Positions 42,727-63,874 of a DNA stretch of 64,000 bases are shown in pieces. How positions within the stretch are numbered: position 1 is the stretch's first letter; each line of letters opens with the position of its first letter. The stretch is from positions 62,001-126,000 of the forward strand of contig NZ_JAMQOQ010000004.1 of NCBI RefSeq assembly GCF_031624635.1, read 5' to 3'. A program made the translations under genes and the position numbers. The notes beneath the pieces were generated by a model that saw only the letters and a list, made by a program, of their open reading frames with translations, was not told where the DNA came from and did no database searches. The stretch is from Halogeometricum sp. S3BR5-2. GTDB lineage: Archaea; Halobacteriota; Halobacteria; Halobacteriales; Haloferacaceae.

Positions 42727-44148
42727 TTACTCGACCGGCGCGAACTTCGCGCCGTACCGCGGGACGCCCTCCTGCACGTAGATGCGCCGGACCGTCCGCC
42801 GGACCGCGTCGCCCACGGCGACCGACTCCGGGTCGCAGTCGGTCAACTGCGCCGGCATGAGCGCCGACCCGTCCCCGTCGGCGGCGTCGACGCGGACGAG
42901 GACGGCGCCGTACGCCCCCTCGCGCTCTTGGAGTTCGACGAACTCCGGCGGCGCGCCGCCCTGCCCGATGACGGTCCGCGCCGCGACGGTCCCTTCGGAA
43001 GAGAGCGGCGCCCGCTCGAAGTCGACCCGCTCGAAGCAGTCGTCGCACGCCCCCTCGCCGGGGAACGACAGCGCGCCGCACGCCGGGCACCGACCCGCCG
43101 TCAGCGCGTATCTACTGTCGAGCGTCCGCCGCCACGTCGGCAGCGAGACGTTCGCGCCGCCGCCCGCCACGTCGCCGTCGACGACGCGGCCCCGCTTTCT
43201 GAGCGAGGCGACGTAGCTCACCGCCTCGCCGCCGTCGACCGCCGCAGCCTCGTCGCCGTCGAGTCGCCCGGAGAAGGCGAACGCGACGGCGCTCCCGCCG
43301 CTTCCGAAGAACGCTGCGAGGACGGGCCCGTCGGTGTCGGACTCCAAGGCGGCGACCAGGCCTATCGGGACCGTCGCCGCCCCGGCGTCGCCGATGCGGT
43401 CGACCACGATGCCCTCGGCGACGGCCTCGTTCGAGACGACGCCCTCGCCGGCGATGCGGTACGGCATCGACCCGTTCGGCTGGTGGAGCGACGCGGCCCC
43501 GATGTCGTCGGCGGCGAGGTCGAGCCCCGAGATGGCGCTCCGCGTCGTCTCCCGCACGGCCGCCCGCTCGTAGCCCGTGACGTCGAGCGACGTCACCTCG
43601 TCGCTGTCGGCCTCGCGGAAGCGGACGCCCGGCGACTCGTCCGTCGCCGCGGCGACGCCGTCGAACGAGACCGGAGCGTCGTCGGCGACGAGGAACGCCG
43701 CGGCGCCCGCGCCGAGAGCGTGGTCGTCGCCCGCGAGGTCGCCGCTGGGCGCGTCCGCGGCGACGGCCAGGACGGTTCCCTCGGCGTTCAGCGCCGTCTC
43801 CAGGGCGTCCGCGCCGGCGGCGGCGCTCTGGCCGTGGTGCCACGCGCGCGTCTCTCGGGGAAGTCCGAGCGCGCGGACGAGTCGGGGGACGAGTTCCTCC
43901 TCGGCCAGCGGCGGCGTGGTCGTGGCGAGGGCGACGGCGTCGACGGACGCGGGGTCCGCGCCGGCGTCGTCGAGAGCGCGCCGCGCGGCGGCGACGGCCA
44001 TCGTCACCGCGTCCTCGTCGCCCGCCGGGACGGCCGTCGACTCGATTCCCCGGCCGTCGAACGTCCCCCACGCCTCGGCCACCTCGTCGGCGCTCACGCG
44101 GCCGCGCGGGACGTAGACGCCCGCCGCCGCGATGCCGCGGTCGCTCAC
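42727..44148 (-). CDS. HMG-CoA-synthase-like / DUF35 (Zn-ribbon OB-fold) fusion protein
   Basis: This 473-residue protein joins a thiolase-fold HMGCS-like domain (about residues 1-335) to a DUF35 domain (about 340-473). DUF35 has the zinc ribbon AGRCPACGALSFPGEGACDD, which holds three of four Cys (the fourth follows in CF), and an OB fold (GTVAARTVIGQGGAPPEFVE). In the HMGCS part the His motif LHQPNGSMPYR is kept. The nucleophilic Cys region reads HGQSAAAGADALE (about 105-117), with Ala or Ser instead of Cys. Condensation chemistry is therefore doubtful; a structural or channelling role with the neighbouring thiolase is likely. The start is GTG 44148, overlapping the thiolase stop (GTGA). Confidence 0.85.
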   Translation of the reverse strand: MSDRGIAAAGVYVPRGRVSADEVAEAWGTFDGRGIESTAVPAGDEDAVTMAVAAARRALDDAGADPASVDAVALATTTPPLAEEELVPRLVRALGLPRETRAWHHGQSAAAGADALETALNAEGTVLAVAADAPSGDLAGDDHALGAGAAAFLVADDAPVSFDGVAAATDESPGVRFREADSDEVTSLDVTGYERAAVRETTRSAISGLDLAADDIGAASLHQPNGSMPYRIAGEGVVSNEAVAEGIVVDRIGDAGAATVPIGLVAALESDTDGPVLAAFFGSGGSAVAFAFSGRLDGDEAAAVDGGEAVSYVASLRKRGRVVDGDVAGGGANVSLPTWRRTLDSRYALTAGRCPACGALSFPGEGACDDCFERVDFERAPLSSEGTVAARTVIGQGGAPPEFVELQEREGAYGAVLVRVDAADGDGSALMPAQLTDCDPESVAVGDAVRRTVRRIYVQEGVPRYGAKFAPVE

Positions 44149-45320
44149 GACTCCACCTCCGAACTCCGCTCGAACACGTGGACGGTGACGCCGCCGCCCG
44201 ACCCGCCGACGTTGTGGGTCAGCCCCCGAACGGGGTCGTTCGTCTGCACCGACGCCTTCCCGCGGAGTTGCTTGAACGCCTCGACGACCTGGCCCGTTCC
44301 GGTCGCGCCGATGGGGTGGCCTTTCGACTTCAGGCCGCCCGAGGTGTTCACGGGCAACTCGCCGTCCGGGTCCGTCCGTCCCTCGCGGAGCAGTTGCCCG
44401 GCCTCGCCGGGTTCGCAGAAACCGAGGTCCTCGTACGCGAGCAGTTCCGCGATGGCGAAGCAGTCGTGCACCTCCGCGAAGTCGAGGTCGTCGGGGCCGA
44501 CGCCCGCCATCTCGTAGGCTCGCTCCGCGGCCGTCCGCGTGGCCGGGATGGAGGTGAGCGAGGGTCGCTGGAACAGGCCGACGCGCCCGCTGGCGGCGCC
44601 GACGCCCGCGACGCGAATCGGGTCGTCCGTCAGGTCGAACGCGGCCTCCTCGCTGGCGACGAGCACCGCGCTCGCGCCGTCGGTCGTCGGACAGCAGTGA
44701 TAGAGGTTGAGGGGGTCGGCCACCTCCGGCGCGTTCACCGCGTCTTCGAGCGAACACTCGAAGCCGAGGTGCGCGTCGGGGTTCTTCGCGCCGTTGGCGT
44801 GGTTCTTCACGGCGACGCGCGAGAGGTCCTCGACCGTCGTGCCGTGTTCGTCCATGTGGGCCGACGCCATCTGCGCGTAGACGCCCGCGAACGTCGTCCC
44901 CGAGAGACGCTCCCACTCCGTCTCGCCGCTGACGCCGAGCCACCACTTCGTGTTGTCCGAACTCGTGTCGGTCATCACCTCGTAGCCGCCGGCGAGGACG
45001 AGGTCCGCCATCCCCGCGCGGACCGTCGCCACCGCGTTCCTGAGCGCGTACCCGCTCGACGCGCAGGCGTTCTCGACGCGCGTCGTCGGGATGCCGTGCA
45101 GTCCCACGTGTTCGGTGACGGCCGGTCCGCTCAGTCCGATCTGTCGGCCGCCGACGCCGAGCGTTCCGAGGAACGCCTCCTCGATGTCCTCGGCGTCGAC
45201 GCCGCCGTCGACGCTCGAAAGCGTCCGGTCGAACGCGGTGTCGAACAGCGAACGGTACGTCTCCTCCGGAAAGGACCCGAACGGCGACTGTCCGGCCCCG
45301 ACGATGTACGCCTCACTCAT
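44145..45320 (-). CDS. Thiolase (SCP2-type acetyl-CoA acetyltransferase)
   Basis: The 391-residue thiolase begins MSEAYIVGAGQSPFGSFPEE at 45320. The nucleophile Cys is in TRVENACASSGYALRNAVAT (about residue 88). The His is in SGGLKSKGHPIGATGTGQVV (about 346), and the second catalytic region is GLTHNVGGSGGGVTVHVFE, with no Cys, as in SCP2-type enzymes. In archaea such thiolases form a complex with HMGCS and a DUF35 protein that channels acetoacetyl-CoA. Here the partner gene is fused (HMGCS-like/DUF35) and overlaps by 4 bases. The reaction could be thiolytic release of acetyl-CoA after hydroxyacyl-CoA dehydrogenation. It is first in the minus-strand operon and divergent from an alcohol dehydrogenase. 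Confidence 0.92.
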   Translation of the reverse strand: MSEAYIVGAGQSPFGSFPEETYRSLFDTAFDRTLSSVDGGVDAEDIEEAFLGTLGVGGRQIGLSGPAVTEHVGLHGIPTTRVENACASSGYALRNAVATVRAGMADLVLAGGYEVMTDTSSDNTKWWLGVSGETEWERLSGTTFAGVYAQMASAHMDEHGTTVEDLSRVAVKNHANGAKNPDAHLGFECSLEDAVNAPEVADPLNLYHCCPTTDGASAVLVASEEAAFDLTDDPIRVAGVGAASGRVGLFQRPSLTSIPATRTAAERAYEMAGVGPDDLDFAEVHDCFAIAELLAYEDLGFCEPGEAGQLLREGRTDPDGELPVNTSGGLKSKGHPIGATGTGQVVEAFKQLRGKASVQTNDPVRGLTHNVGGSGGGVTVHVFERSSEVES

Positions 45321-51693: not shown

Positions 51694-52587
51694 ATGCCAG
51701 CGGACAAGACGACGAGCATGGCCGAGGCCGTCGGTCGCATCGAACCGGGCAGCACCGTCGCCGCCGGGTTGGCGTTGGAGCACGCCATCCCGTTCGCGGC
51801 CGGTCACGAACTCGCGAGGCAGGGCACGGACGACCTGACGCTCGTCGGCCCCATCAGCGACGTGCTGTTCGACCAACTCGTGGGCGCCGGGTTGGTCTCC
51901 CGCGTCCGGGCGGCGTGGACCGGAAACGTCAGCGCCGGGAGCGGCTACAACTTCCGGCGGGCCGTCGAGGCGGGCGACCTCTCGGTGGAGAACCACTCGA
52001 ACTTCTCCGTCGCCCTCTCGCTGCACGCGGCGGCGCTGGGCGTCCCCTACCTGCCGACCCGGTCGCTCCTCGGCAGCGACATCGCCGAGGAGCCGCAGTT
52101 CCGAATCGCGGAGGACCCCTTCGAGGGCGAACGCGTCGTACAGGTGCCCGCCATCGCCCCCGACTGGGCGTTCGTCCACGTCCAACGCGCCGCGCCGACC
52201 GGGGACGCGCACCTCTGGGGCAACACCGGCGTCACGTACGAGGCCGTCCGGGCCGCCGAGCACGTCCTCGTCACGGCCGAGGAGGTGGTCGACCTCGACG
52301 TCATCAAGAGCGACCCCAGTCGGACGAGAATCACCCGCGAACAGGTCGACGCCGTCGTCGAGGCGCCGTTCGGCGCGCACCCCTCGCCGGTCGCGGGGCG
52401 GTACAACCGCGACAACGAGTACTTCCTCGAGTACGCCGACGCGACCCGCGACGCCGACGGCTTCGGCGCGTGGGCCGACGAGTGGGTGTACGGCGTCGAC
52501 GGTCGAGAGGAGTACCGCGAGAAGGTGGAGCGCGACCTCTCCGTGCAGGAACCGACGACGGCCGCGGAGGTGACCTATGGCCAGTGA
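51694..52587 (+). CDS. CoA-transferase subunit A (family I, GctA/IpdA-like)
   Basis: The 297-residue subunit starts MPADKTTSMAEAVGRIEPGS and has TVAAGLALEHAIPFAAGHEL, NVSAGSGYNFRRAVEAGDLS and WAFVHVQRAAPTGDAHLWGN (about residues 168-187). VTYEAVRAAEHVLVTAEEVV follows. This is the family I CoA-transferase fold of glutaconate-CoA transferase and the IpdAB type. The B subunit follows with an 11-base overlap. IpdA-like proteins in actinobacteria open a ring of a CoA-bound cyclic intermediate rather than move CoA, so either a transferase or a hydrolytic ring-opening role is possible. ATTTATC about 30 bases before the start is the likely TATA element. Confidence 0.88.
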   Translation: MPADKTTSMAEAVGRIEPGSTVAAGLALEHAIPFAAGHELARQGTDDLTLVGPISDVLFDQLVGAGLVSRVRAAWTGNVSAGSGYNFRRAVEAGDLSVENHSNFSVALSLHAAALGVPYLPTRSLLGSDIAEEPQFRIAEDPFEGERVVQVPAIAPDWAFVHVQRAAPTGDAHLWGNTGVTYEAVRAAEHVLVTAEEVVDLDVIKSDPSRTRITREQVDAVVEAPFGAHPSPVAGRYNRDNEYFLEYADATRDADGFGAWADEWVYGVDGREEYREKVERDLSVQEPTTAAEVTYGQ

Positions 52588-53410
52588 GAACGGAGCGGGG
52601 GCGGACGGGGCGAACGGAACGAACGGGGCGGACGGCGCCGACGGCTACACCGCCCGCGAGATGATGGTGAGCGCGGCGGCCCGCGAGATAGAGGACGGCG
52701 ACGTGGCGTTCGTCGGGATGCGCCTCCCCCTCATCGCCTTCCAGGTGGCGGTCAGCACTCACGCGCCGAACGCGATGTCGGTGTTCGAGAGCGGCGTCGT
52801 CCGCGACGACCCCGCGGACGGCTTCCTCCACACGATGTGCGACCTGCCGAACCTCGACCGGGCCGTCTCGACGACGGGGATGCTCGACGTGATGGGGCGA
52901 CTCGCCCGCGGCGACATCGACGTGGGATTCCTCGGCGGCGCCGAGATAGACCGCTACGGCAACCTCAACACGACGCGGGTCCACGCCGGCGACAGGGAGA
53001 TTCGCCTACCGGGCAGCGGCGGCGCCTGCGACATCGCCTGCATGTCGGACCGAACGGTCATCCTCATGGCGCACGAACCGCGCCGGTTCGTCGAACGCGT
53101 CGAGTACGTCACCAGCCCCGGCCACGGCGAGGGCGGCGACTGGCGCGCGGAGGAGTCGGTGCCGGGCGGCGGTCCCTCGGCGCTCGTCACCTCGAAGGCG
53201 ACGTTCGGGTTCGACGACGGCGGCGAACTCTACTTGCGGACGGTCCACCCCGGCGAGGACGCCGACGCCGTCGCCGCGGACTTCCCGTGGGACCTGCGGA
53301 CGCGCGAGGACGTGACGGGCGACCCGGTCGGCGAGACGGCCGAACCCACCGACGAGGTGCTCTCGCTCGTCCGCGGGTTCGACCCCGACGGATTCTGGAC
53401 AGCCGACTGA
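52577..53410 (+). CDS. CoA-transferase subunit B (family I, GctB/IpdB-like)
   Basis: The 277-residue subunit has TAREMMVSAAAREIEDGDVA (about residues 27-46) and FVGMRLPLIAFQVAVSTHAP. The catalytic-Glu block reads NAMSVFESGVVRDDPADGFL (the ESG of GctB-like subunits, about 76). DVGFLGGAEIDRYGNLNTTR and LPGSGGACDIACMSDRTVIL follow, a standard B-subunit pattern. It overlaps the A subunit by 11 bases. A Gly/Ala/Asn-rich N-terminal tail (residues 3-24) is unusual but probably disordered. The stop codon lies within the left arm of a perfect inverted repeat (53409-53444), so readthrough into the CoA-ligase gene may be controlled. Confidence 0.88.
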   Translation: MASENGAGADGANGTNGADGADGYTAREMMVSAAAREIEDGDVAFVGMRLPLIAFQVAVSTHAPNAMSVFESGVVRDDPADGFLHTMCDLPNLDRAVSTTGMLDVMGRLARGDIDVGFLGGAEIDRYGNLNTTRVHAGDREIRLPGSGGACDIACMSDRTVILMAHEPRRFVERVEYVTSPGHGEGGDWRAEESVPGGGPSALVTSKATFGFDDGGELYLRTVHPGEDADAVAADFPWDLRTREDVTGDPVGETAEPTDEVLSLVRGFDPDGFWTAD

Positions 53411-53469: not shown

Positions 53470-55140
53470 ATGCAAGCACGTGTCCCAGCGGAGAAGCTTC
53501 CAGACTCGGGTACGGGGCCGGAACTGATTCACGCGGTCCCCGAAGCGCACTACCCGGAGACGGTGAACGTCGTCAGCGAACTGGTCGACAGGCACGTCGA
53601 GGACGGACGCGGGGGCGACCCGGCCATCCGGTTCACCGGGTACGACGACAACCCCGACATCAGCTTCGAGAAGGGCGCTATCTCGTACGCGGACCTGCAG
53701 TCGCGGGTGAACCGGTTCGGGAACGCGCTCTCCGACATCGGCGTCGAACCCGGCAGTCGCGTCCTCGTCCGCTTCCCGAACCGCCCGGAGGCCGTCGTCG
53801 CCTGTCTGGCCGCACAGAAGATAGGCGCCGTCGCGCTCCCGTCGATGAAACTCCTCCGAGCGGCCGAACTGAAGAAGATAATCAACGACGCCGGCGCGAC
53901 CCACTGCGTGGTGTACGACGACCTACTCGACGAGGTCGACAAGGCGATGCCCGAGTTGGAGACGCTCGAAGAGGTGGTCGTCGCCGACCGCGGCGCGGGC
54001 GTCGACCACGACCACCGCGACTACGACGAACTGCTGGAGGGCGGCGACGACGAACTCGACGCCTACGAGACCGACCGGGACGACCTCGCGCTGATGCTGT
54101 ACACGAGCGGAACCACGGGCGAACCGAAGGGGGCCATCCACACCCACCGGCAGGTGCTGGCGACCGCGGACACGTACGCTCGCTACTGTCTCGAACCCAG
54201 CCGCGAGGACGTGTTCGGCGGCAACCCGCCGCTCCCGTTCGCCTACGGCTACGGCGACCTCGTCACCTTCCCCCTCCGGTTCGGCGCGACGACGAGCCTC
54301 GTCGAGGACGCGAAACCGGCGGACCTCCTGCAGGCGGTCGAAGACCACGGCATCACGGTCCTCTGTACGGTACCGACGGCGTTCAATCAGATCCTGTCGG
54401 CGCACCCGAACGCGGCCGACGAGTACGACCTCTCGTCGCTCCGCGCTGGCATGAGCGCGGGCGAACCGCTGGCGCCGAGCACGTTCGACGCCTTCGAAGA
54501 GGAGTTCGGCGTCACCATCCTCGACGGCATCGGGACGACCGAGATGCTGCACATCTTCATCAGCCATCGGCACACCGACGACGTGGACCCCACGGCGACC
54601 GGATTCCCCGTCCCCGGCTACGAGTGCAAGGTCATCGACCCCGACACGGAGGAGGAGTTGCCGCGCGGCGAGGCGGGACTGCTGGCCGTGCGCGGACCGA
54701 CCGGTATCGCCTACTGGGGTCGACAGGACAAACAGGAGGAGGCCGTCGTCGACGGGTGGAGCCTCCCCGGCGACATCTACGTCCACCGGACGGACGGCCG
54801 CCTGGAGTACAAATCGCGGCACGACGACCTCATCGTCTCCTCGGGGTACAACATCCCCGGTCCGGAGGTGGAGAACGTCCTTCAGGAGTTAGAGGCCGTC
54901 TCCGAGGTGGCCGTCATCGGCGCGCCGCACGAGGAACGCGGGCAGATAGTCAAGGCGTTCGTCGTCCTCGAGGAGGGCCACGAACCGAACGACGAACTCG
55001 TCGAGCAGTTCCAGACCCACGTGAAGAACACGCTCGCACCGTACAAGTACCCGCGCGCCGTCCAGTTCGTCGAGAACCTCCCGCGCACGGAGACCGGGAA
55101 GATCCAGCGTATCAAACTCCGCGAACGAGAACAGAACTGA
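53470..55140 (+). CDS. Acyl/aryl-CoA ligase (AMP-forming), benzoate-CoA-ligase-like
   Basis: The 556-residue ligase has the P-loop-like LMLYTSGTTGEPKGAIHTH (about residues 213-231). DGIGTTEMLHIFISHRHTDD contains motif A5 in the form GTTEMLHIF, typical of benzoate- and 2-aminobenzoate-CoA ligases. The A8-like hinge is LEYKSRHDDLIVSSGYNIPG, and the catalytic Lys is in RTETGKIQRIKLRERE near the C-terminus. It forms acyl-AMP then the CoA thioester. Its neighbours (CoA-transferase, MaoC, UbiD, Paa) fit an aromatic or cyclic acid substrate. It is not a PaaK-type ligase by its motifs. MaoC follows after 133 bases. Confidence 0.9.
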   Translation: MQARVPAEKLPDSGTGPELIHAVPEAHYPETVNVVSELVDRHVEDGRGGDPAIRFTGYDDNPDISFEKGAISYADLQSRVNRFGNALSDIGVEPGSRVLVRFPNRPEAVVACLAAQKIGAVALPSMKLLRAAELKKIINDAGATHCVVYDDLLDEVDKAMPELETLEEVVVADRGAGVDHDHRDYDELLEGGDDELDAYETDRDDLALMLYTSGTTGEPKGAIHTHRQVLATADTYARYCLEPSREDVFGGNPPLPFAYGYGDLVTFPLRFGATTSLVEDAKPADLLQAVEDHGITVLCTVPTAFNQILSAHPNAADEYDLSSLRAGMSAGEPLAPSTFDAFEEEFGVTILDGIGTTEMLHIFISHRHTDDVDPTATGFPVPGYECKVIDPDTEEELPRGEAGLLAVRGPTGIAYWGRQDKQEEAVVDGWSLPGDIYVHRTDGRLEYKSRHDDLIVSSGYNIPGPEVENVLQELEAVSEVAVIGAPHEERGQIVKAFVVLEEGHEPNDELVEQFQTHVKNTLAPYKYPRAVQFVENLPRTETGKIQRIKLREREQN

Positions 55141-55273: not shown

Positions 55274-55735
55274 GTGACACGCTACTACGAGGACATCGAC
55301 GTCGACGAAACGCACGACCTCGGTTCGTACACCGCCGACCGGACGGAACTCCTGTCGTTCGCCGAGCGGTACGACCCCCAACCCATCCACGTCGACCCGG
55401 ACGCCGCGGCGGAGACGATGTACGGCGGACTCATCGCCAGCGGGTGGCACACCGCGAGTTCCTGCATGCGACTCCTCGTGGACGGCTTCCTCGCGGAGAC
55501 GGCGACGCTGGGGTCGTTCGGCCCCGACGAACTCCGGTGGCGGAACCCGGTGTACCCGGGCGACACTGTCGGCGTCGAGGCGCGCATCCTCGGGAAGACC
55601 GAATCGACCAGTCGGGACGACCGCGGCTACGTCGAATCGGAGGTCGAAGGGACGAACGGCGACGGCGACGAAGTCGTCTACTGGCGCGCGACGAACATCT
55701 TCCTGCGAGAACCGGACAGCGAGGCCCGTCAGTGA
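55274..55735 (+). CDS. MaoC-like hydratase
   Basis: The 153-residue hot-dog protein has the hydratase-2 motif FAERYDPQPIHVDPDAAAET (about residues 29-48), with catalytic Asp and His (Y-D-P-Q-P-I-H). GLIASGWHTASSCMRLLVDG and LRWRNPVYPGDTVGVEARIL follow, as in R-specific enoyl-CoA hydratases and MaoC proteins. The start is GTG (55274). It is the size of a single domain. In E. coli, PaaZ carries such a domain to open the oxepin-CoA ring, joined to an ALDH; a free-standing MaoC may do that here. A general acyl-CoA hydratase role is equally possible. Confidence 0.88.
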   Translation: MTRYYEDIDVDETHDLGSYTADRTELLSFAERYDPQPIHVDPDAAAETMYGGLIASGWHTASSCMRLLVDGFLAETATLGSFGPDELRWRNPVYPGDTVGVEARILGKTESTSRDDRGYVESEVEGTNGDGDEVVYWRATNIFLREPDSEARQ

Positions 55736-55909: not shown

Positions 55910-56410
55910 ATGGCACGCACGTACACCACCTCCGAAGAGTACCTCCCCGAGGACACGGAGGGGGAGGTCACCCTGCAGGTGACGGACACGGAGTCCCGCG
56001 AGATATTCCGGACCCGGGCGCGCGTCTCGCGCGACCCCGAGGACCTCACCGATGCGGTCCCGCTGACGGTCGTCAAGGGGCCGCACGAGAACAGACAGGA
56101 GCAGTGGTTCATCGACTTCATCGAGACGGACGTGGGGGAGGGCCACATCGACGAGGAACTCCTCCGGGAGTGTCTCCGCGAGGCGCGCGAGGGCTCGGAC
56201 CTGATGAACGCGCGGTCGGAGGAACTGCGGGCGATGCTCCAGTACCTCGTCCGCACCGGCGAGTACGACTCGCTCTCCGACGCGGTCCGGTCGCTGCTGT
56301 CGGCGCAGCTCTCTCGGGAGTACCCCGAACTGGTCGAGGAGTACGTCGACCTCCGGACCGCGCTGGAGCGGGAGTCCGTCGCGGCGGCGTTCCGCGGGGA
56401 GGAGCGGTGA
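55910..56410 (+). CDS. Protein of unknown function encoded first in the UbiD operon
   Basis: The 166-residue protein has a beta-rich N-terminal half (GEVTLQVTDTESREIFRTRA, VPLTVVKGPHENRQEQWFID) and a helical C-terminal half. The latter holds LLRECLREAREGSDLMNARS and YDSLSDAVRSLLSAQLSREY. The stretch SLSDAVRSLLS is reminiscent of ribbon-helix-helix or swapped-hairpin dimers, but the match is short. I do not recognise a family. The stop overlaps the UbiD start (GTGA at 56407-56410), so it is co-translated with UbiD and probably works with it, perhaps as a small subunit or assembly factor. Confidence 0.8.
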   Translation: MARTYTTSEEYLPEDTEGEVTLQVTDTESREIFRTRARVSRDPEDLTDAVPLTVVKGPHENRQEQWFIDFIETDVGEGHIDEELLRECLREAREGSDLMNARSEELRAMLQYLVRTGEYDSLSDAVRSLLSAQLSREYPELVEEYVDLRTALERESVAAAFRGEER

Positions 56411-57978
56411 GCGAATCCGACCGACGGGTCGTCTCCGAACCCAGCCTGCGGTCGTACCTCGACGCGCTCGACGACCGGGGGGAACTCGTCCGCGTCACGG
56501 AGGAGCTATCGTGGGACCTCGAAGCGAGCGCCGTCGCAATGCGCGCCGGCGACCGGGACGGCCCGATACCGCTGTTCGAGAACGTTCGGGGGAGCGACGT
56601 GCCCGGCGCGCGGTTGGTCGGCGACCCGTACCGCGGGTCGCAGCGCAGGCCGTGGGACCGCATCGCGACGGCGCTGGGCCTCCCGGCGGACGTGGACAGC
56701 GAGACGTACTACGACGCGATGCTGGAACGGTTGACGGACCCCGTCGACCCGGTGACCGTCGACGCGACGCCCGAGGCCGCACCGTGCAAAGAGGTGGTTC
56801 GGACGGGCGAGGAGGCGCGACTGCTGTCGCTGCCGTGGCCGTACATCCACTCGGGCGACGGCGGGCGCTACTCGAACCTCCACACGCTCGTCGTCCCGGA
56901 CCCCGACTCCGAGTGGGTCGACTGGTCGACCCACCGGATGATGATACACGACGACCGGCAGGGCAGCGTCCTGCTCCTGGCGGGCGAGCAGACGCCGAAC
57001 CTCTACTACTACAAGTACGAACGGCGCGACGAACCGATGCCCGCCGCCGTCGTCGTCGGCGCGGAACCGGCCGTCCAGTGCACGTCGGTGATGTGGATTC
57101 CGACCGGGAGCGACGAGGCGCGGTACGCGGGCGGCCTCCGCGGCGCCCCGGTCGAACTCGTCGAGTGCGAGACGAACGACCTGCGCGTCCCGGCCGACGC
57201 GGAACTCGTCGTCGAGGGGCATCTCCTCCCCGAGAAGCGACTCGACGAGGGACCGTTCGGCGACTACTTCGGCTACATGCACGGCCCCAGGCGGTCGATG
57301 CCCGCGTTCAGGGTCGACGCCGTCACGCACCGCGAGTCGCCCATCATTCCGTTCTGCGTCGAGGGGACGGGCGCGGGCTACACCGAGAACACGACGAGTT
57401 CGATGGAGGTCGGCTGCGTCGGCCCGGACGCGACGCTCGGCCTGCGCGCGGCGGGGTTCGACGTGGTCCGCTGCGTGCCGTGGCAGTTCACGCCGCGGAC
57501 GGCGTACGTGGTGGCGACGGCGACGAACGACCCCGGGACGCTCCACGAACTGGCGAACTTCATCTTCACGACGTGGGGGATGCTCCACATCGACTTCTTC
57601 ATCTTCGTCGACGCCTGCGTCGACCCCTTGGACACGCGGGAGGTGTTCGAGGCCATCGCCCTGCACGCCGACCCCGACGCCGACTTCCACCAGTTCGGGG
57701 TCGAGACGATGCCGAAGGTGCCCCTGAACATCTACCAGACGCCCGACGAGAAGGGCGACGCGCAGACCGGCACGTCGAAGGCGAAGACCGCGAAAGCGTA
57801 CATCGACGCGACCGGGTCCGCGGGAGCGCGGCCGTCTGTCGTCTCCGAGTCGAGCAGGGAGCGCGCGCGCGAACTGCTCGCCACGGCCGGCGTCGCGGAC
57901 GCCTCCCCACGGGAGAGGGACGACGCGGGCGGCGCGAGAGGCGCGGGCGACGTTCCGGGCGCGGGAGGCGAGCGCTGA
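56407..57978 (+). CDS. UbiD family (de)carboxylase, prFMN-dependent
   Basis: The 523-residue protein is a full UbiD. It has YSNLHTLVVPDPDSEWVDWS, then THRMMIHDDRQGS with Arg177 in the place of the catalytic Arg of fungal Fdc1. LPEKRLDEGPFGDYFGYMHG has the catalytic motif EGPFGD at residues 281-286. VEGTGAGYTENTTSSMEVGC and FFIFVDACVDPLDTREVFEA follow. UbiD enzymes need prenylated FMN made by UbiX, which is not in the window. Substrates are unsaturated or aromatic acids. The GTG at 56407 overlaps the upstream gene, and the stop overlaps the second UbiD-like gene (TGATG). A Gly/Ala/Arg-rich tail of about 30 residues ends the protein. Confidence 0.92.
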   Translation: MSESDRRVVSEPSLRSYLDALDDRGELVRVTEELSWDLEASAVAMRAGDRDGPIPLFENVRGSDVPGARLVGDPYRGSQRRPWDRIATALGLPADVDSETYYDAMLERLTDPVDPVTVDATPEAAPCKEVVRTGEEARLLSLPWPYIHSGDGGRYSNLHTLVVPDPDSEWVDWSTHRMMIHDDRQGSVLLLAGEQTPNLYYYKYERRDEPMPAAVVVGAEPAVQCTSVMWIPTGSDEARYAGGLRGAPVELVECETNDLRVPADAELVVEGHLLPEKRLDEGPFGDYFGYMHGPRRSMPAFRVDAVTHRESPIIPFCVEGTGAGYTENTTSSMEVGCVGPDATLGLRAAGFDVVRCVPWQFTPRTAYVVATATNDPGTLHELANFIFTTWGMLHIDFFIFVDACVDPLDTREVFEAIALHADPDADFHQFGVETMPKVPLNIYQTPDEKGDAQTGTSKAKTAKAYIDATGSAGARPSVVSESSRERARELLATAGVADASPRERDDAGGARGAGDVPGAGGER

Positions 57979-59411
57979 TGGAGTTCCGAGAGACCGTCGA
58001 GGCGCTGGCGGCCGCCGAGGACCTCCTGACGGTCGAGGACCCGGTTTCGGACCCCGACCTCGCGTTCGCCCTCGCCGCCGAGAGCGCGCGGTCGAACGGC
58101 CCCGCGATGCTGCTGACGGACGTCCCCGGCGTCGGGCGACTCGCCTGCGGGGTGCGGGGCGGCCCCGACCGGATGGTCCGGCGGCGACGACTGCCGTGGA
58201 GCCGAATCGCGCTGGGATTGGGGCTGCCGGCGGACGCGACGTACGAGACGATGCTCGAAGCGCTGTCGACCGCTCCCGCGGAGCGCCCGTCGCTGCGGCG
58301 CCGGGCCGCCGCCGCGAGCGGGCACGACCGGGACGCCTCGGCGCTCTGCCTGCCGACGGTGTCGTCGAGCGACCGGCCCCTTATCTCCGAGGGACTGCTC
58401 GCGGTCGAAGTCGACGGGCGGCAGTTCTGGGCGCCCGTCCGCGGCGACGTGCGCGGGCGGACGACGCTGCGCCTCCACGTCCCGGACACCGTCGCGAGCC
58501 GCGTGGAACCGGGGCCGGCCACGGTGGCGCTGGGCGTGCCGACGGCGGCGCTGATGGCCGCGCATCTCTCGTGCGCCCGGACGCACCCGTGGCGGGCGTG
58601 GACCGCCCCGGAGATAGCCGCGGCGCTGGACGACGTGCCCGTCGCACCGCACGCCGGCGGCCTCGTCCCGGCGAGCGCGGAAGTCGTTCTCGACGGCGAC
58701 GTCGCTCCGACCGGCGAACCGGCCGCCGGACCCCGCGCGGCGTGGGAGGGCGTCGCGGACGCCGCGGCGGTGACCGTCTCCGTCGACCGGGTGGCGACCC
58801 GGCCGGACCCGCTCGTCCCCCTCGCCCCGGTGGGCGAACCGCTCGGCGACGACATCCACCAGACGAGCCTCGTCGAGGGGGCGCGCCTCCAGTCCCGCGT
58901 GAACGGCTACTGGGGCGTCTCGCCGGTCAGTTGGATCGGGCTACCGGTCGAGGCGCAACTCGGCGTCTGCTTCGTCGCCAGCGAGATACTGTACGCCGGG
59001 TTCGAGTGGCAGTTGGCGAACACGCTGTTCTCGTTCGCCACGTCGTTCGACAAGGTGGTCGTCCTCGACGTCGACGCCGCGTTCGAGGACCTCGCGCGGG
59101 CGCTGGACGACATCTGGGTGAAGGCGCATCCCTCGCACGACTGGGTGTTCAGCGAGGCGGCCGCGCCCGCCGCGGCCGCGCCGGCGTACCGGCGGGACGG
59201 GCAGACGGGGTCGAGGCTGTTCGTCAACGCCGCGTGGGACCCCCGCTGGGACGAGGAGTTCATCGCGCCGGAGGTGAACTTCGAGCTGATGTACCCCCCG
59301 GAGGTACGGCGGACGGTCGAAGAGCGGTGGGCGGAGTTGGGGTTCGACGGCGACGAGGATGCGAGCGACACGGACGACGCGGTGGCAGGAGGCGACGACG
59401 GCAATGAGTGA
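57978..59411 (+). CDS. UbiD-fold paralogue lacking the catalytic motif
   Basis: The 477-residue protein keeps the UbiD layout. There is an N-terminal region (MEFRETVEALAAAEDLLTVE), a Trp/Arg segment LPWSRIALGLGLPADATYET parallel to the WDRIATALGLPADVDSETYY of its neighbour, and a C-terminal half with FDKVVVLDVDAAFEDLARAL. The EGPFGD motif is replaced: near residue 250 it reads EPAAGPRAAWEGVADA, without the Glu-Gly-Pro-Phe-Gly-acid series. The segment holding the catalytic Arg is also absent. A second, non-catalytic UbiD subunit is the best explanation, as in multi-subunit aryl carboxylases. It overlaps both neighbours (1 base with UbiD, 8 bases with MBL). Confidence 0.85.
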   Translation: MEFRETVEALAAAEDLLTVEDPVSDPDLAFALAAESARSNGPAMLLTDVPGVGRLACGVRGGPDRMVRRRRLPWSRIALGLGLPADATYETMLEALSTAPAERPSLRRRAAAASGHDRDASALCLPTVSSSDRPLISEGLLAVEVDGRQFWAPVRGDVRGRTTLRLHVPDTVASRVEPGPATVALGVPTAALMAAHLSCARTHPWRAWTAPEIAAALDDVPVAPHAGGLVPASAEVVLDGDVAPTGEPAAGPRAAWEGVADAAAVTVSVDRVATRPDPLVPLAPVGEPLGDDIHQTSLVEGARLQSRVNGYWGVSPVSWIGLPVEAQLGVCFVASEILYAGFEWQLANTLFSFATSFDKVVVLDVDAAFEDLARALDDIWVKAHPSHDWVFSEAAAPAAAAPAYRRDGQTGSRLFVNAAWDPRWDEEFIAPEVNFELMYPPEVRRTVEERWAELGFDGDEDASDTDDAVAGGDDGNE

Positions 59412-60363
59412 CCCGCACCGAATCGCCGTCAACGAGGGGTCGCCCGAGGGGTCCAACAGCGCCTACGTGCTCCCGGACCGCGGCGTGGTGGTCGACCCCG
59501 GACCGCCCGGCGACGACGACTTCGAGCGGTTGCGGGCGGGTGTCGAGGCGAGCGGACTCGCTCTCGGGGACGTAGAGCACGTCGTTCTCACGCACTGGCA
59601 CGCCGACCACGTCGGCCTCGCGCCGCGACTCGCCGACGCCGCGGACGCGACGATTCACATGCACCGACGGGACGCGCCGTTACTCGCGGAGTACCGCGAG
59701 GCGCGCCGCCGGCGAGTGCGACGGGACGCGTCGGTGCTGGCCGGGTGGGGCGTCCCCGAGGAGCGTATCGAGGAGGTCCGAGAGCGGGACGCTCCCTCGC
59801 CGCTGCCCGACCGGACGCCTGTCGTCGCCCACGAGGACGGCGACGTCGTCGCCGGCGGCGAACTCCTGCACGCGCCGGGACACACCGAGGGACACCTCGC
59901 GTACCGGTGCGACGACGCCCTGTTCGTCGGCGACGCCGTCCTGCCGACGTACACGCCGAACGTCGGCGGGAGCGACACCCGCGCTGAGAACCCTCTGCCC
60001 GATTACCTCCGGACCCTCCGGCGGTTGCTCCGACACGACGGGGAGTGCTACCCGGGCCACGGCGACGACCTGTCGCTCCGCGAACGAGTCGGGGAGATTC
60101 GCTCGCACCACCGAGAGCGGGCCGGACGGGTCGCAGAGCGCCTCGGCGTGCACGGCGAGGCGACGCCGTGGGAACTCGCGGTCGACCTGTTCGGCGAGAT
60201 GCGAGGCGTCCACGTCAAGTTCGGCGCCGGGGAGTCGGCCGCGCACCTGAGAGCGCTGGCCGCGGCGGCGGAGTCGCCCGTCTCGCGGGTCGGGTCCGAC
60301 CCCGAGCGCTACGCGCTCACCGGTCGCTCGGCGGAGGCAGTCCTCGACTCGCTCTTCGAGTGA
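59404..60363 (+). CDS. MBL-fold metallo-hydrolase
   Basis: The 319-residue protein has the metallo-beta-lactamase motif LTHWHADHVGLAPRLADAAD (residues 62-81). Further metal ligands are His in APGHTEGHLAYR, Asp in LFVGDAVLPTYTPNVGG and His in CYPGHGDD. The C-terminal helical region (RVGEIRSHHRERAGRVAERL) is of the kind found in thioesterase/lactonase-like MBL proteins. Two metals are likely. The gene overlaps the degenerate UbiD gene by 8 bases and is last in the operon. Hydrolysis of an acyl-CoA or lactone would fit but is unproven. Confidence 0.88.
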   Translation: MSDPHRIAVNEGSPEGSNSAYVLPDRGVVVDPGPPGDDDFERLRAGVEASGLALGDVEHVVLTHWHADHVGLAPRLADAADATIHMHRRDAPLLAEYREARRRRVRRDASVLAGWGVPEERIEEVRERDAPSPLPDRTPVVAHEDGDVVAGGELLHAPGHTEGHLAYRCDDALFVGDAVLPTYTPNVGGSDTRAENPLPDYLRTLRRLLRHDGECYPGHGDDLSLRERVGEIRSHHRERAGRVAERLGVHGEATPWELAVDLFGEMRGVHVKFGAGESAAHLRALAAAAESPVSRVGSDPERYALTGRSAEAVLDSLFE

Positions 60364-60706: not shown

Positions 60707-60991
60707 TTAGGGGCCGGAGTTCGATTCGAGTTTCAGGTCCGAACGCGCCCGCGCGACGCACGTGAGCACGTAGCCTTCCTCCTTCTCGCTGCCGGAGAGG
60801 AACATCCCTTCCGTCTGTTCGACGTCGCCGTCGACGACGCGGATAGCGCTACAGACGCCGCAGACGCCCATCCGGCACTGGTAGGGGAGGTCGAGGCCCG
60901 CCTCCTCGGCCGCTTCGAGTATCGGTTTGTCCGCCGGCACCTCGATAGTGCGCCCCTCGTTCACGAATTCCACTTCGTACGTTTCTGTCAT
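60707..60991 (-). CDS. Short plant-type 2Fe-2S ferredoxin
   Basis: The 94-residue protein has the plant-type 2Fe-2S ligand pattern. CRMGVCGVCSAI (about residues 39-50) supplies three Cys and VLTCVARARSDLKLESN the fourth. There is no N-terminal insertion typical of the abundant haloarchaeal ferredoxins, so it is closer to the ferredoxin domain that ends PaaE-type reductases. It overlaps the GNAT gene stop by one base (TGATG). Divergently placed next to paaADBC, it may supply electrons to the PaaA di-iron centre; this is inference by context. Confidence 0.88.
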   Translation of the reverse strand: MTETYEVEFVNEGRTIEVPADKPILEAAEEAGLDLPYQCRMGVCGVCSAIRVVDGDVEQTEGMFLSGSEKEEGYVLTCVARARSDLKLESNSGP

Positions 60992-61473
60992 CAGTCCACC
61001 TGTCGCTCGTACACGTGTTCGACCGGAGAGAACCCCATCCGCTCGTACGCTTTCCGCCCCTGGTCGTCGCCCTCGATGACGTCGACGCGGCAGAACGTGA
61101 CGTCGCGGTCGGACTCCGAGAACCACTCGACGGCCGCCTCCACTAGCGCATCGCCGACGCCCTGGTCGCGATGGGACTCGGCGACGTAGTGGCCGTTGAT
61201 GTAGCCGTGGTCGGAGAGGCGGAAGATGGGGTGGTCGCCCGTGAGTCGGGCCTCGATGACGCCGACGATGTCGTCCCCGTCGACGGCGATGAACACGGCG
61301 CCGTACTTCGAGTCGACGAGTTGGTTCTCGAAGTACTGGAGCCACCGGTCGTCGGCGTCCTCCTTGTGCTGGTATCGCTCGTCGTACTCCGAGAGGTGCT
61401 CGGTGAACCCGTGCCAGAGGTCGAGCAGGGCCTGTCCGTCCTCGGTGGTCGCCCGCCGGATTTCAACGTCCAT
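60991..61473 (-). CDS. GNAT family N-acetyltransferase
   Basis: The 160-residue protein is a single GNAT domain. Visible parts are TEDGQALLDLWHGFTEHLSE and YGAVFIAVDGDDIVGVIEAR. Motif A reads INGHYVAESHRDQGVGDALV (about residues 92-111), with the acetyl-CoA loop RDQGVGD. VIEGDDQGRKAYERMGFSPV near the end has the Tyr of motif B. The substrate is unknown; N-terminal or small-molecule amines are typical. It is co-transcribed with the ferredoxin gene downstream and divergent from paaA. Confidence 0.88.
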   Translation of the reverse strand: MDVEIRRATTEDGQALLDLWHGFTEHLSEYDERYQHKEDADDRWLQYFENQLVDSKYGAVFIAVDGDDIVGVIEARLTGDHPIFRLSDHGYINGHYVAESHRDQGVGDALVEAAVEWFSESDRDVTFCRVDVIEGDDQGRKAYERMGFSPVEHVYERQVD

Positions 61474-61594: not shown

Positions 61595-62518
61595 ATGGTG
61601 ACCGACAAGAAGCTAAAGCAGCAGCTGCAAGACGGGAAGATGATAGAGTCCGAGGAGGAGATGACCGAGGACTACAAGAAGGCGCTGACGCAGACGCTCC
61701 TCGTGTCCGGCGACACCGAGTTGATGAGCGCCCCGGCCTACTACGGCCCCTCGTTGAACGCGCCGAGCGTCAACGCGCGCGCCTCTTGCATCAGCGTCAT
61801 CCAGGACGAACTCGGTCACGGCCACATCGCGTACCGCCTGCTCGAGGACTTGGGATACGACCGCGAGTACCTCATCCACGGGCGCGAACCCCACGAGTTC
61901 CGCAACACCTACGGCTTCGACCAGCACCTCGACAACTTCGCGGAACTGGTCACCGCCCACGGTCTGTGGGACCGCGCGGGCATCGCGCTCCTGTCGGACA
62001 TCCACGAGAACACCTCTTACGCCCCGTGGAAGCGGGCGCTGACGAAAGTGGGGAAAGAAGAGCAGTTCCACCTCCGCCACGGCGAGACGTGGATGCGCCG
62101 CCTCTCCAACAAGAACGACAAGACGAAGCAGAAGGTGCAGGACGCCGTCGACTGGATGTTCCCCATCGCCCTCGAGTGGTTCGGACTGCCGGACGACAAG
62201 AAGAAGCACGACGACCAACTCGCCTACCGGATCAAGGGCCTGAGCAACGACGAACTCCGCCAGAAGTGGATGGACAGCGCCGTCCCCGTCTGCAACCAGA
62301 TGGACATCGACGTTCCCGCCCACTACGACGAGGAGGCCGACGAGTACGTCGTCGAGTACGAGATGCCGGCGCACTTCGAGCCCGAAACCAAGACCTGGCA
62401 CTTCGACGAGAACACCACGTGGGACGACGTCATCGACCGCTGGCGCTCCCGCGGTCCGGCCAACGAGAAGTACGTGAACCTCCTGCAGTCGAACCAACTG
62501 GACCCCGTCTCAGCATGA
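61595..62518 (+). CDS. paaA: 1,2-phenylacetyl-CoA epoxidase, catalytic subunit PaaA
   Basis: The 307-residue protein matches PaaA, the ferritin-like di-iron subunit. SAPAYYGPSLNAPSVNARAS leads to the first metal helix with CISVIQDELGHGHIAYRLLE (Glu and His, about residues 64-83). HGREPHEFRNTYGFDQHLDN and the second metal helix KVGKEEQFHLRHGETWMRRL (Glu-x2-His, about 150-169) follow. PaaA with PaaB, PaaC and the electron chain turns phenylacetyl-CoA into the 1,2-epoxide. It starts the operon paaA-paaD(N)-paaB-paaC-zinc ribbon, with a 4-base overlap to the next gene. Length is close to E. coli PaaA. Confidence 0.95.
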   Translation: MVTDKKLKQQLQDGKMIESEEEMTEDYKKALTQTLLVSGDTELMSAPAYYGPSLNAPSVNARASCISVIQDELGHGHIAYRLLEDLGYDREYLIHGREPHEFRNTYGFDQHLDNFAELVTAHGLWDRAGIALLSDIHENTSYAPWKRALTKVGKEEQFHLRHGETWMRRLSNKNDKTKQKVQDAVDWMFPIALEWFGLPDDKKKHDDQLAYRIKGLSNDELRQKWMDSAVPVCNQMDIDVPAHYDEEADEYVVEYEMPAHFEPETKTWHFDENTTWDDVIDRWRSRGPANEKYVNLLQSNQLDPVSA

Positions 62519-62898
62519 GCATCCAACAACGGACCGACTCCGACGCGGCACCGCTCGGACCGACCGAGGACGCCACTGCCTTCGAGGAGGAGATATGGGC
62601 GAACCTCGACGAGATTCCCGACCCGCACATTCCGGTGAGCCTCGTCGAGATGGCGATGATATACGACGTGCACGTCGAACAGAACGCCGGCGGGGCGGAC
62701 GTGCGCGTCGAGATGACGTTCCCCTGCATGGGCTGTCCGGCCTACGACATGATACTCGACGACGTGCGCGCGTGCCTGCGGACGATGGCGGGCGTCGACG
62801 ACGTCGACGTCGACGTCGTGTGGAGCCCCGTCTGGGAGAAGAGCATGCTGACGCAGGACGTCCGAGAGAAGATGCGGGAGTCCGGTATCGCGCTATGA
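62515..62898 (+). CDS. paaD: PaaD N-terminal module (MIP18/DUF59 Fe-S maturation protein)
   Basis: The 127-residue protein is a DUF59/MIP18-type domain as in the first part of PaaD. NLDEIPDPHIPVSLVEMAMI (about residues 30-49, the IPDPEIPVLSI-like block) is followed by VEMTFPCMGCPAYDMILDDV with two Cys (CMGC), and VDVVWSPVWEKSMLTQDVRE, close to the PaaD WSP.W motif. Canonical PaaD continues with a C-terminal zinc ribbon; this one stops, and the ribbon is encoded separately at 63876. PaaD is thought to mature the PaaE Fe-S cluster or the PaaA iron centre. It overlaps paaA (ATGA) and paaB (ATGA). Confidence 0.9.
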   Translation: MSIQQRTDSDAAPLGPTEDATAFEEEIWANLDEIPDPHIPVSLVEMAMIYDVHVEQNAGGADVRVEMTFPCMGCPAYDMILDDVRACLRTMAGVDDVDVDVVWSPVWEKSMLTQDVREKMRESGIAL

Positions 62899-63107
62899 AG
62901 TACGAGGTGTTCGCTCGCATCAACGCCGGAGACGAACTCATCAACGTCGGCAACGTCGACGCGGAGAACGACCGACTCGCCAAGGTGTACGCCTACCGGA
63001 CGTTCGACGAGGAGGACTGGGACCGACTCGTCGTCGTCCGCCGCGAGCACATGGTGGAGGCCACCAACGTCGGCCACATGCCGGACACGCCGGGTGATGC
63101 CGCGTGA
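62895..63107 (+). CDS. paaB: Phenylacetyl-CoA epoxidase subunit PaaB
   Basis: The 70-residue protein starts MKYEVFARINAGDELINVGN and contains YAYRTFDEEDWDRLVVVRRE. It resembles PaaB, the small subunit that supports the complex, although it is shorter than the roughly 95-residue E. coli protein. The order A-D-B-C differs from the usual A-B-C-D. It overlaps paaD by 4 bases and paaC by 4 bases (GTGA), so tight translational coupling is expected. Confidence 0.9.
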   Translation: MKYEVFARINAGDELINVGNVDAENDRLAKVYAYRTFDEEDWDRLVVVRREHMVEATNVGHMPDTPGDAA

Positions 63108-63874
63108 GCGAGTGGTCCGACGAGGCGGTCGACTACGTGCAAGCCGTCGCCGACACGAAACTCGTGCTGTCGCAGCGGTACGCCGAGTGGATGTTCTCGG
63201 GGCCGGTGCTCGAAGACGACATCGCGGGCGCGAGCGCCGCGCAGGACGAACTCGGCCACGTCCGCCAACTGTTCCGACTGCTCGGTCAGCAGGGACGCGA
63301 GGACGACTGGCTCGAAGGCGACCGGACGCCGGCGGAGTTCGCGAACGCGGCGACGGTCGACGAGAAACCCGGGTCGTGGGTCGACTTCGTCGTGCGCGTC
63401 GGTCTGACCGAACGCGCCGCGTGGTACCTCATCGACGCCATCGACCACGAGGACTTCGAGGGCCTCGGCACCCGCATCGGGCAGGACGAGTTCTTCCACT
63501 TGGAGTTCCTCGACGGCCGTCTGGAGACGATGGGCGACGAGCGGACGGACGAAGTGAGCGCGGCGCTCGAATCCGCGCTCCCGGAGGTGCTCGCGTTCCT
63601 CGGCCCCGCCGCGTACGACGAGGAGGCGGACCCCCTCGTCGCGTCCGGCTTCACCGACCGACCGGCCTCGGCCCTGCGCGCGGCGTTCGTCGGCCGCCTC
63701 GAGGAGATACTCGAAGGGACGGCCGTCGACGTCGACGCCCTCGACGTGGACTGGGACGCCCCCTCCCTCGACGAGTGGGACGAGCGCCGACGGCGGACGG
63801 GCGACGGCACCGTCTCCGAAGGGGACGTGGAATCGCTCAGCGGCGTCCAGAACGCCGAGTTCAGGATGGACTGA
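63104..63874 (+). CDS. paaC: Phenylacetyl-CoA epoxidase structural subunit PaaC
   Basis: The 256-residue protein is the PaaC ferritin-like subunit. VADTKLVLSQRYAEWMFSGP, then AGASAAQDELGHVRQLFRLL (about residues 42-61), GLGTRIGQDEFFHLEFLDGR (about 120-139) and a C-terminal helical tail are seen. PaaC pairs with PaaA and normally lacks a working di-iron site. The Glu and His in DELGH and DEFFH are kept here, so the site could still bind iron. The GTG start at 63104 overlaps the paaB stop. The zinc-ribbon gene begins 2 bases after the stop. Confidence 0.93.
   Translation: MSEWSDEAVDYVQAVADTKLVLSQRYAEWMFSGPVLEDDIAGASAAQDELGHVRQLFRLLGQQGREDDWLEGDRTPAEFANAATVDEKPGSWVDFVVRVGLTERAAWYLIDAIDHEDFEGLGTRIGQDEFFHLEFLDGRLETMGDERTDEVSAALESALPEVLAFLGPAAYDEEADPLVASGFTDRPASALRAAFVGRLEEILEGTAVDVDALDVDWDAPSLDEWDERRRRTGDGTVSEGDVESLSGVQNAEFRMD

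Follow-up and report, generated by a model that had tools for sequence, protein, structure and literature searches.

A conserved haloarchaeal gene cluster pairs an intact with a degenerate UbiD protein and suggests a three-part UbiD system

We analysed a 64,000-nucleotide stretch of the genome of Halogeometricum sp. S3BR5-2 (contig NZ_JAMQOQ010000004.1, positions 62,001 to 126,000; hereafter the window), in which three overlapping genes encode a small protein (P166), an intact UbiD protein (UbiD1) and a degenerate UbiD homologue (UbiD2). Together the three products probably make up one obligate heteromeric (de)carboxylase that depends on prenylated flavin mononucleotide (prFMN), with UbiD1 as catalytic subunit, UbiD2 as pseudo-enzyme subunit and P166 as gamma-like subunit. 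A fourth gene, for a metallo-beta-lactamase (MBL)-fold hydrolase, follows. The genes stand head to tail with overlaps of 4, 1 and 8 bases. An initial annotation made from the sequence of the window had described four overlapping genes over the span 55910-60363, and this was confirmed. In window coordinates the four genes are as follows:

55910..56410, plus strand, P166, 166 amino acids, ATG start
56407..57978, plus strand, UbiD1, 523 amino acids, GTG start, probable catalytic prFMN subunit
57978..59411, plus strand, UbiD2, 477 amino acids, ATG start, UbiD fold
59404..60363, plus strand, MBL-fold hydrolase, 319 amino acids, ATG start

The two UbiD proteins occur strictly together. A survey of 392 genomes of the archaeal order gave one and the same set of 81 genomes for UbiD1 (threshold E below 1e-100) and for UbiD2, without exception; five extra UbiD2 hits, which matched other UbiD proteins weakly, are not counted. 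In 82 of the 83 copies the two genes stand side by side and face the same way, as expected from the linkage proposed in the initial annotation. In the remaining copy, in genome G040, they sit at opposite ends of one contig, which is probably circular. P166 is encoded in all 81 genomes with the UbiD pair, and a fragment of it also occurs in G133, a genome that is incomplete; its proposed place as constant third member is borne out. Among 38 loci read with their flanks, it lies directly upstream of the pair in 36. The MBL gene, fourth in the arrangement first proposed, is absent from 11 of the 38 loci. All four genes are under purifying selection, with ratios of nonsynonymous to synonymous substitution rates (dN/dS) of 0.12 for P166, 0.14-0.20 for UbiD1, 0.18-0.24 for UbiD2 and 0.23-0.32 for the MBL hydrolase. 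UbiD2 of the window shares 94% identity with its H. pallidum counterpart and 73% with the H. limi protein. Often the cluster sits on a megaplasmid, as it does in Haloterrigena turkmenica and Halalkalicoccus jeotgali.

UbiD1 is intact as a UbiD protein. It scored 56.6, 221.2 and 43.7 bits against the UbiD Pfam domains PF20695, PF01977 and PF20696, all above cut-off. In the PDB it came closest to HudA/PA0254 and Fdc1 (E about 1e-51), single-gene enzymes of the same fold whose subunits all bear the catalytic residues. The UbiD catalytic motif is written E(D)RE in the published notation (PMC8379154). UbiD1 reads EGPFGD at residues 281-286 and keeps R177, E281 and D286. In a joint alignment of 61 UbiD1 and 62 UbiD2 rows, with some genomes present more than once and distant homologues in both sets, the UbiD1 rows hold R in 61/61 at the position of Fdc1 R173, E in 61/61 at E277, and D in 59 and E in 2 of 61 at E282, so that the motif and Arg177 noted in the initial annotation are intact across the set. 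The position of the prFMN metal ligand E233 of Fdc1 corresponds to E237 and is kept in 61/61 rows, that of N168 is mostly D (D172), and that of H191 is an invariant Q (Q195, 61/61). The C-terminal segment is unusual (NIYQTPDEKG..GTSKAKTAKAYIDAT). The same genome encodes a UbiX prenyltransferase (TIGR00421, 221.1 bits, G000:C3:22821-23348). This is the only ubiX found, and a third UbiD gene of the genome adjoins it as a conventional UbiD-UbiX pair (G000:C3:21302-23418; L106:6303-8418).

UbiD2 matches the same three Pfam domains weakly but above their cut-offs (28.7, 31.2 and 34.1 bits), and a profile of 40 UbiD2 sequences matches Fdc1 at E 1.7e-23. With its AlphaFold2 (AF2) model (predicted local distance difference test (pLDDT) 79, predicted template modelling score (pTM) 0.78), Foldseek returned HudA as best match (E 8.3e-23), and HudA, Fdc1 and E. 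coli UbiD all at probability 1.00. By sequence and by predicted structure, these matches identify UbiD2 as a true UbiD homologue. At the position of the catalytic motif it reads AAGPRAAWEG. The E282 position is acidic in 0/62 UbiD2 rows, the E277 position is E in 6/62, and the R173 position is Arg in 42/62 and His in 13/62. The prFMN metal-ligand positions N168, H191 and E233 (Fdc1 numbering) are lost, with E at the last in 1/62 rows, and the prFMN segment is shortened, its key residues varying freely. None of the alignments restores the full motif with its Arg. The initial description of a UbiD fold with a degenerate motif therefore stands, but the further statement that UbiD2 has no THRM-like segment was too strong: a profile alignment to A. 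niger Fdc1 places W151-A-P-V-R155-G of UbiD2 on the R173 segment, although the Arg is not constant.

The residue losses in UbiD2 are neither chance nor the mark of a broken gene, because UbiD2 occurs in 81 genomes and is under purifying selection; a decaying gene was ruled out on the same grounds. Across 40 UbiD2 proteins 49 columns are invariant and gather in the C-terminal half, which is rich in invariant aromatics and where the signature W380-x-K382-A-H-P385-x3-W389-x-F391-S392 is conserved. Many invariant residues are unlike UbiD1 (W256-E257, Y311-W312-G313, W380, W389, W420-D421). We considered E257 as a displaced E282 and rejected it, the distant homologues being non-acidic there (GPFTGAFK, GPYLNFYQ). 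So many invariant columns unlike UbiD1 could reflect a new active site, for substrate or CoA-ester binding or for another lyase step, which would make both subunits catalytic; given that the prFMN segment is shortened and free to vary at its key residues, and that the invariant positions are concentrated C-terminally, we regard this as very unlikely. Loss of catalysis without loss of constraint would also suit a transient cofactor-handling or assembly chaperone acting on UbiD1, rather than a stable subunit, as would the poor order of the AF2 model across 377-439, a stretch with many invariant residues. Such a protein has a precedent in LpdD, a prFMNH2-binding chaperone that activates E. coli UbiD (PMC10865409). 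The loss of N168, H191 and E233 argues against cofactor carriage, however, and overlapping operon genes with 1:1 conservation fit a stoichiometric subunit better, which makes an LpdD-like role distinctly unlikely in our view.

The pairing extends beyond the haloarchaea. Outside the order, a phylum-wide profile search returned a single UbiD2 homologue (E 8.7e-67). It belongs to genome G594, where the genes run UbiD1, UbiD2, a 112-amino-acid small protein and a PaaK-like CoA ligase. UbiD1 of this genome has EGPFGE with the Arg kept, and its UbiD2 has EGPFTG, with the second acid lost. This non-haloarchaeal row of four genes lies on one strand (L103:7177-12167), the small protein and PaaK-like ligase genes overlapping. 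Genome G566, of the same class, has the order small protein, UbiD1, small protein, UbiD2 at a contig end, and its UbiD2 reads EGPYLN with the Arg replaced by Asn. The second catalytic acid is lost in all UbiD2 proteins seen, and full decay is haloarchaeal. A maximum-likelihood tree groups all UbiD1 proteins in one clade (support 99/95) and all UbiD2 proteins in a second (100/99). Distant homologues belonging to a different class within the phylum fall inside each clade, and neither contains PpcA, PpcB or other UbiD proteins. As read from this tree, the pairing is older than the lineage split or has moved as a unit, since the clades are separate and each includes distant homologues. G566 and a further genome, G574, also have clusters (L139:5565-10704 and L138:8356-13550) in which three UbiD genes, including a tandem pair, lie close to genes resembling a transporter-type membrane protein and a flavoprotein.

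P166 has a beta-rich N-terminal domain (about residues 1-80) with an invariant GPHE at 57-60, a helical C-terminal domain and a single Cys. Its AF2 model (pLDDT 82, pTM 0.47) had no PDB fold match at E below 0.1. A P166 profile scored 22.3 against the small protein of G594 and 21.3 against PpcG, the Azoarcus gamma subunit; true decoys reached at most 16.7, those above this value being shortened copies of P166 that were set aside. A further profile alignment to PpcG scored 21.5, with decoys under 16 and shuffles under 18. The part of P166 that aligns with PpcG, over 62 columns, is the N-terminal domain. Adding two small archaeal proteins to the N-terminal domain gave a profile that scored 29.0 over 75 columns against PpcG (decoys no higher than 15.7, shuffles no higher than 17.1). 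A profile of three small archaeal proteins alone scored 15.0 with decoys at 15.9, and so gave no separation. Neither P166 nor its small homologues matched the gamma-subunit models PF09662 and TIGR02725 directly. On these profile comparisons the N-terminal domain is likely, though not proven, to be remotely related to the gamma subunit of phenylphosphate carboxylase; the initial label 'unrecognised' is to that extent outdated, and holds for direct family and fold matches. An affinity to LpdD (a Pba3/4-like fold) gained no support, as the model matched no PDB entry at this threshold, and one to VdcD was rejected, with neither a fold match nor CXXC.

The helical half of P166, with a weak motif of the ParD or ribbon-helix-helix (RHH) kind, weakly matches ParD antitoxins (E 0.0077 and E 0.56, below cut-off), and the P166 gene opens the overlapping series of four, so it might be a ParD-like DNA-binding autoregulator of the operon and not a part of the enzyme. 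The matches are all sub-threshold, on which ground a true RHH domain was rejected, and in the AF2 model no strand precedes the helices. In addition, the distant homologues of P166 are small proteins without most of the helical half, and their genes are placed beside, between or after the UbiD genes. An autoregulator is thus rather unlikely, and we favour P166 as a gamma-like subunit.

Several known systems offer comparisons. Phenylphosphate carboxylase has two UbiD-like subunits plus a gamma subunit (PMC7500099), and the present cluster resembles PpcABCD in its two UbiD-like genes and small subunit gene near CoA-ligase genes; in contrast to the present pair, where UbiD2 has lost them, Azoarcus PpcA and PpcB both keep the E-R-E residues. 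Against the equivalog models of the alpha and beta subunits, TIGR02723 and TIGR02724 (cut-offs 564.6 and 468.95 bits), UbiD1 scored 174.7 and 121.7 bits and UbiD2 28.3 and 20.6 bits. Neither phenylphosphate synthase nor a delta subunit was found among the neighbours read, and no genome-wide search was made. VdcC is inactive alone and needs VdcD (PMC8379154), again a UbiD subunit with a small partner, and UbiD1 matches the VdcC model at 190.6 bits. VdcD, however, binds zinc and has two CXXC motifs as against the one Cys of P166, and in the VdcCD structure no second UbiD-like subunit such as UbiD2 is described. By the sequence tests made, the system is neither phenylphosphate carboxylase nor VdcBCD. 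The naphthalene carboxylase of culture N47, compared here by its published description, likewise has several UbiD-like subunits, with putative linker proteins in a large complex (PMC12016498, PMC10570749). A working analogy from an unrelated protein family is the trypanosome S-adenosylmethionine decarboxylase (AdoMetDC)-prozyme pair, in which a decarboxylase is activated by a catalytically dead paralogue (PMC5201418). A partial literature search found no published description of a dead UbiD subunit.

We propose that UbiX, encoded elsewhere in the genome, would supply prFMN to UbiD1, which would bind it and perform the CO2 chemistry through R177, E281 and D286. UbiD2 would catalyse no reaction and would shape or regulate the oligomer and its domain closure, and P166, as the third, gamma-like subunit, may aid assembly, cofactor loading or activation. 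The acid that gains or loses CO2 would probably be unsaturated or aromatic, and its conversion would adjoin a CoA-activation step. The physical complex, the roles of UbiD2 and P166, the substrate and the direction of the reaction are inferred. Several observations weigh against this proposal. UbiD1 departs from Fdc1 at one metal-ligand position (Q195 in place of H191), which leaves even its prFMN binding an inference. R155 is kept in many UbiD2 proteins and may make some substrate or cofactor contact. The profile score that links P166 to the gamma subunit is modest. Finally, for two of the 38 loci tblastn found no P166 next to the pair. Both belong to genome G267, which has one intact P166, unlinked, elsewhere.

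The surroundings of the cluster link it to acyl-CoA metabolism, as the initial annotation had suggested for CoA esters. Upstream of P166 and on the same strand lie genes for a coenzyme A (CoA)-transferase pair, a CoA ligase and a MaoC-like hydratase. Downstream of the MBL gene come two genes on the opposite strand, for a 2Fe-2S ferredoxin and a GNAT-like protein, and then four Paa-like genes. The features are:

51694-52587 and 52577-53410 (51694..53410), plus strand, two CoA-transferase subunits
53470..55140, plus strand, AMP-forming acyl-CoA ligase, best model the benzoate-CoA ligase family (363.7 bits, cut-off 375.25)
55274..55735, plus strand, MaoC-like hydratase, 153 amino acids, a neighbour in this genus
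60707-61473, minus strand, 2Fe-2S ferredoxin and GNAT-like protein, constant neighbours of the Paa-like genes
61595..63874, plus strand, divergent Paa-like multicomponent oxygenase (PaaA-, PaaD-, PaaB- and PaaC-like)

Across the 38 loci two genomic contexts recur. A Paa-like oxygenase is nearby in 28, of which 27 have the MBL gene. Eight others carry biotin carboxylase and carboxyltransferase, acyl-CoA dehydrogenase, CoA ligase and MaoC genes, and two have neither context; the MBL gene is present in 0/8 and 0/2 of these. The MBL hydrolase is thus tied to the Paa-like context (27/28 loci vs 0/10 others) and was rejected as a core part, contrary to the initial proposal that it completes the system. 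The Paa-like proteins fall below all NCBIfam equivalog cut-offs (PaaA 129/280, PaaC 71/133 and PaaD 105/180 bits), and a canonical phenylacetyl-CoA epoxidase was rejected on these scores. The 2Fe-2S ferredoxin may be the electron donor of the oxygenase. The UbiD pair was present in 39 of 40 genomes with this PaaA type; the 40th, G133, is fragmented, and its P166 piece lies near a contig end. The converse fails, with 42 UbiD-pair genomes lacking a match to this PaaA in a search over 352 genomes as against 392. No haloarchaeal PaaK above cut-off was found in the genome of the window; the best match was the CoA ligase listed above, whose substrate is not thereby settled. A tandem of genes for an HMG-CoA-synthase-like protein and a thiolase lies at 42727-45320, not adjacent to the UbiD cluster in the window, and is conserved near this cluster in many other genomes.

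The two contexts suggest different substrates for different subfamilies of the UbiD pair. In this genus the CoA ester of the acid would probably be attacked by the divergent Paa-like oxygenase and then pass to beta-oxidation. A broader reading, which we offer only tentatively, is that an obligate complex of active UbiD, dead UbiD and gamma-like protein is conserved in at least two archaeal classes. The acid that it would (de)carboxylate would enter a hitherto unrecognised aryl-CoA pathway with a Paa-like oxygenase in aerobic haloarchaea, and an acyl-CoA pathway with biotin carboxylase elsewhere.

Taken together, the results describe a real, conserved and under-annotated enzyme system of the multi-subunit UbiD type; its probable three-part form has not been clearly described before and would feed aromatic- or acyl-acid breakdown. 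Public annotation currently misses the distinction between the active and the dead UbiD protein, because both are named 'UbiD family decarboxylase' (or 'domain-containing protein') and P166 is a 'hypothetical protein'. The pair also draws attention to a divergent haloarchaeal oxygenase of the Paa-like type. Enzymes that use prFMN are sought for making and breaking C-C bonds with CO2. If the proposed complex is real, an obligate pair of active and dead UbiD proteins with a partner would be a further reason why some UbiD proteins are inactive alone, and would give a direct way to test the role of non-catalytic UbiD subunits.

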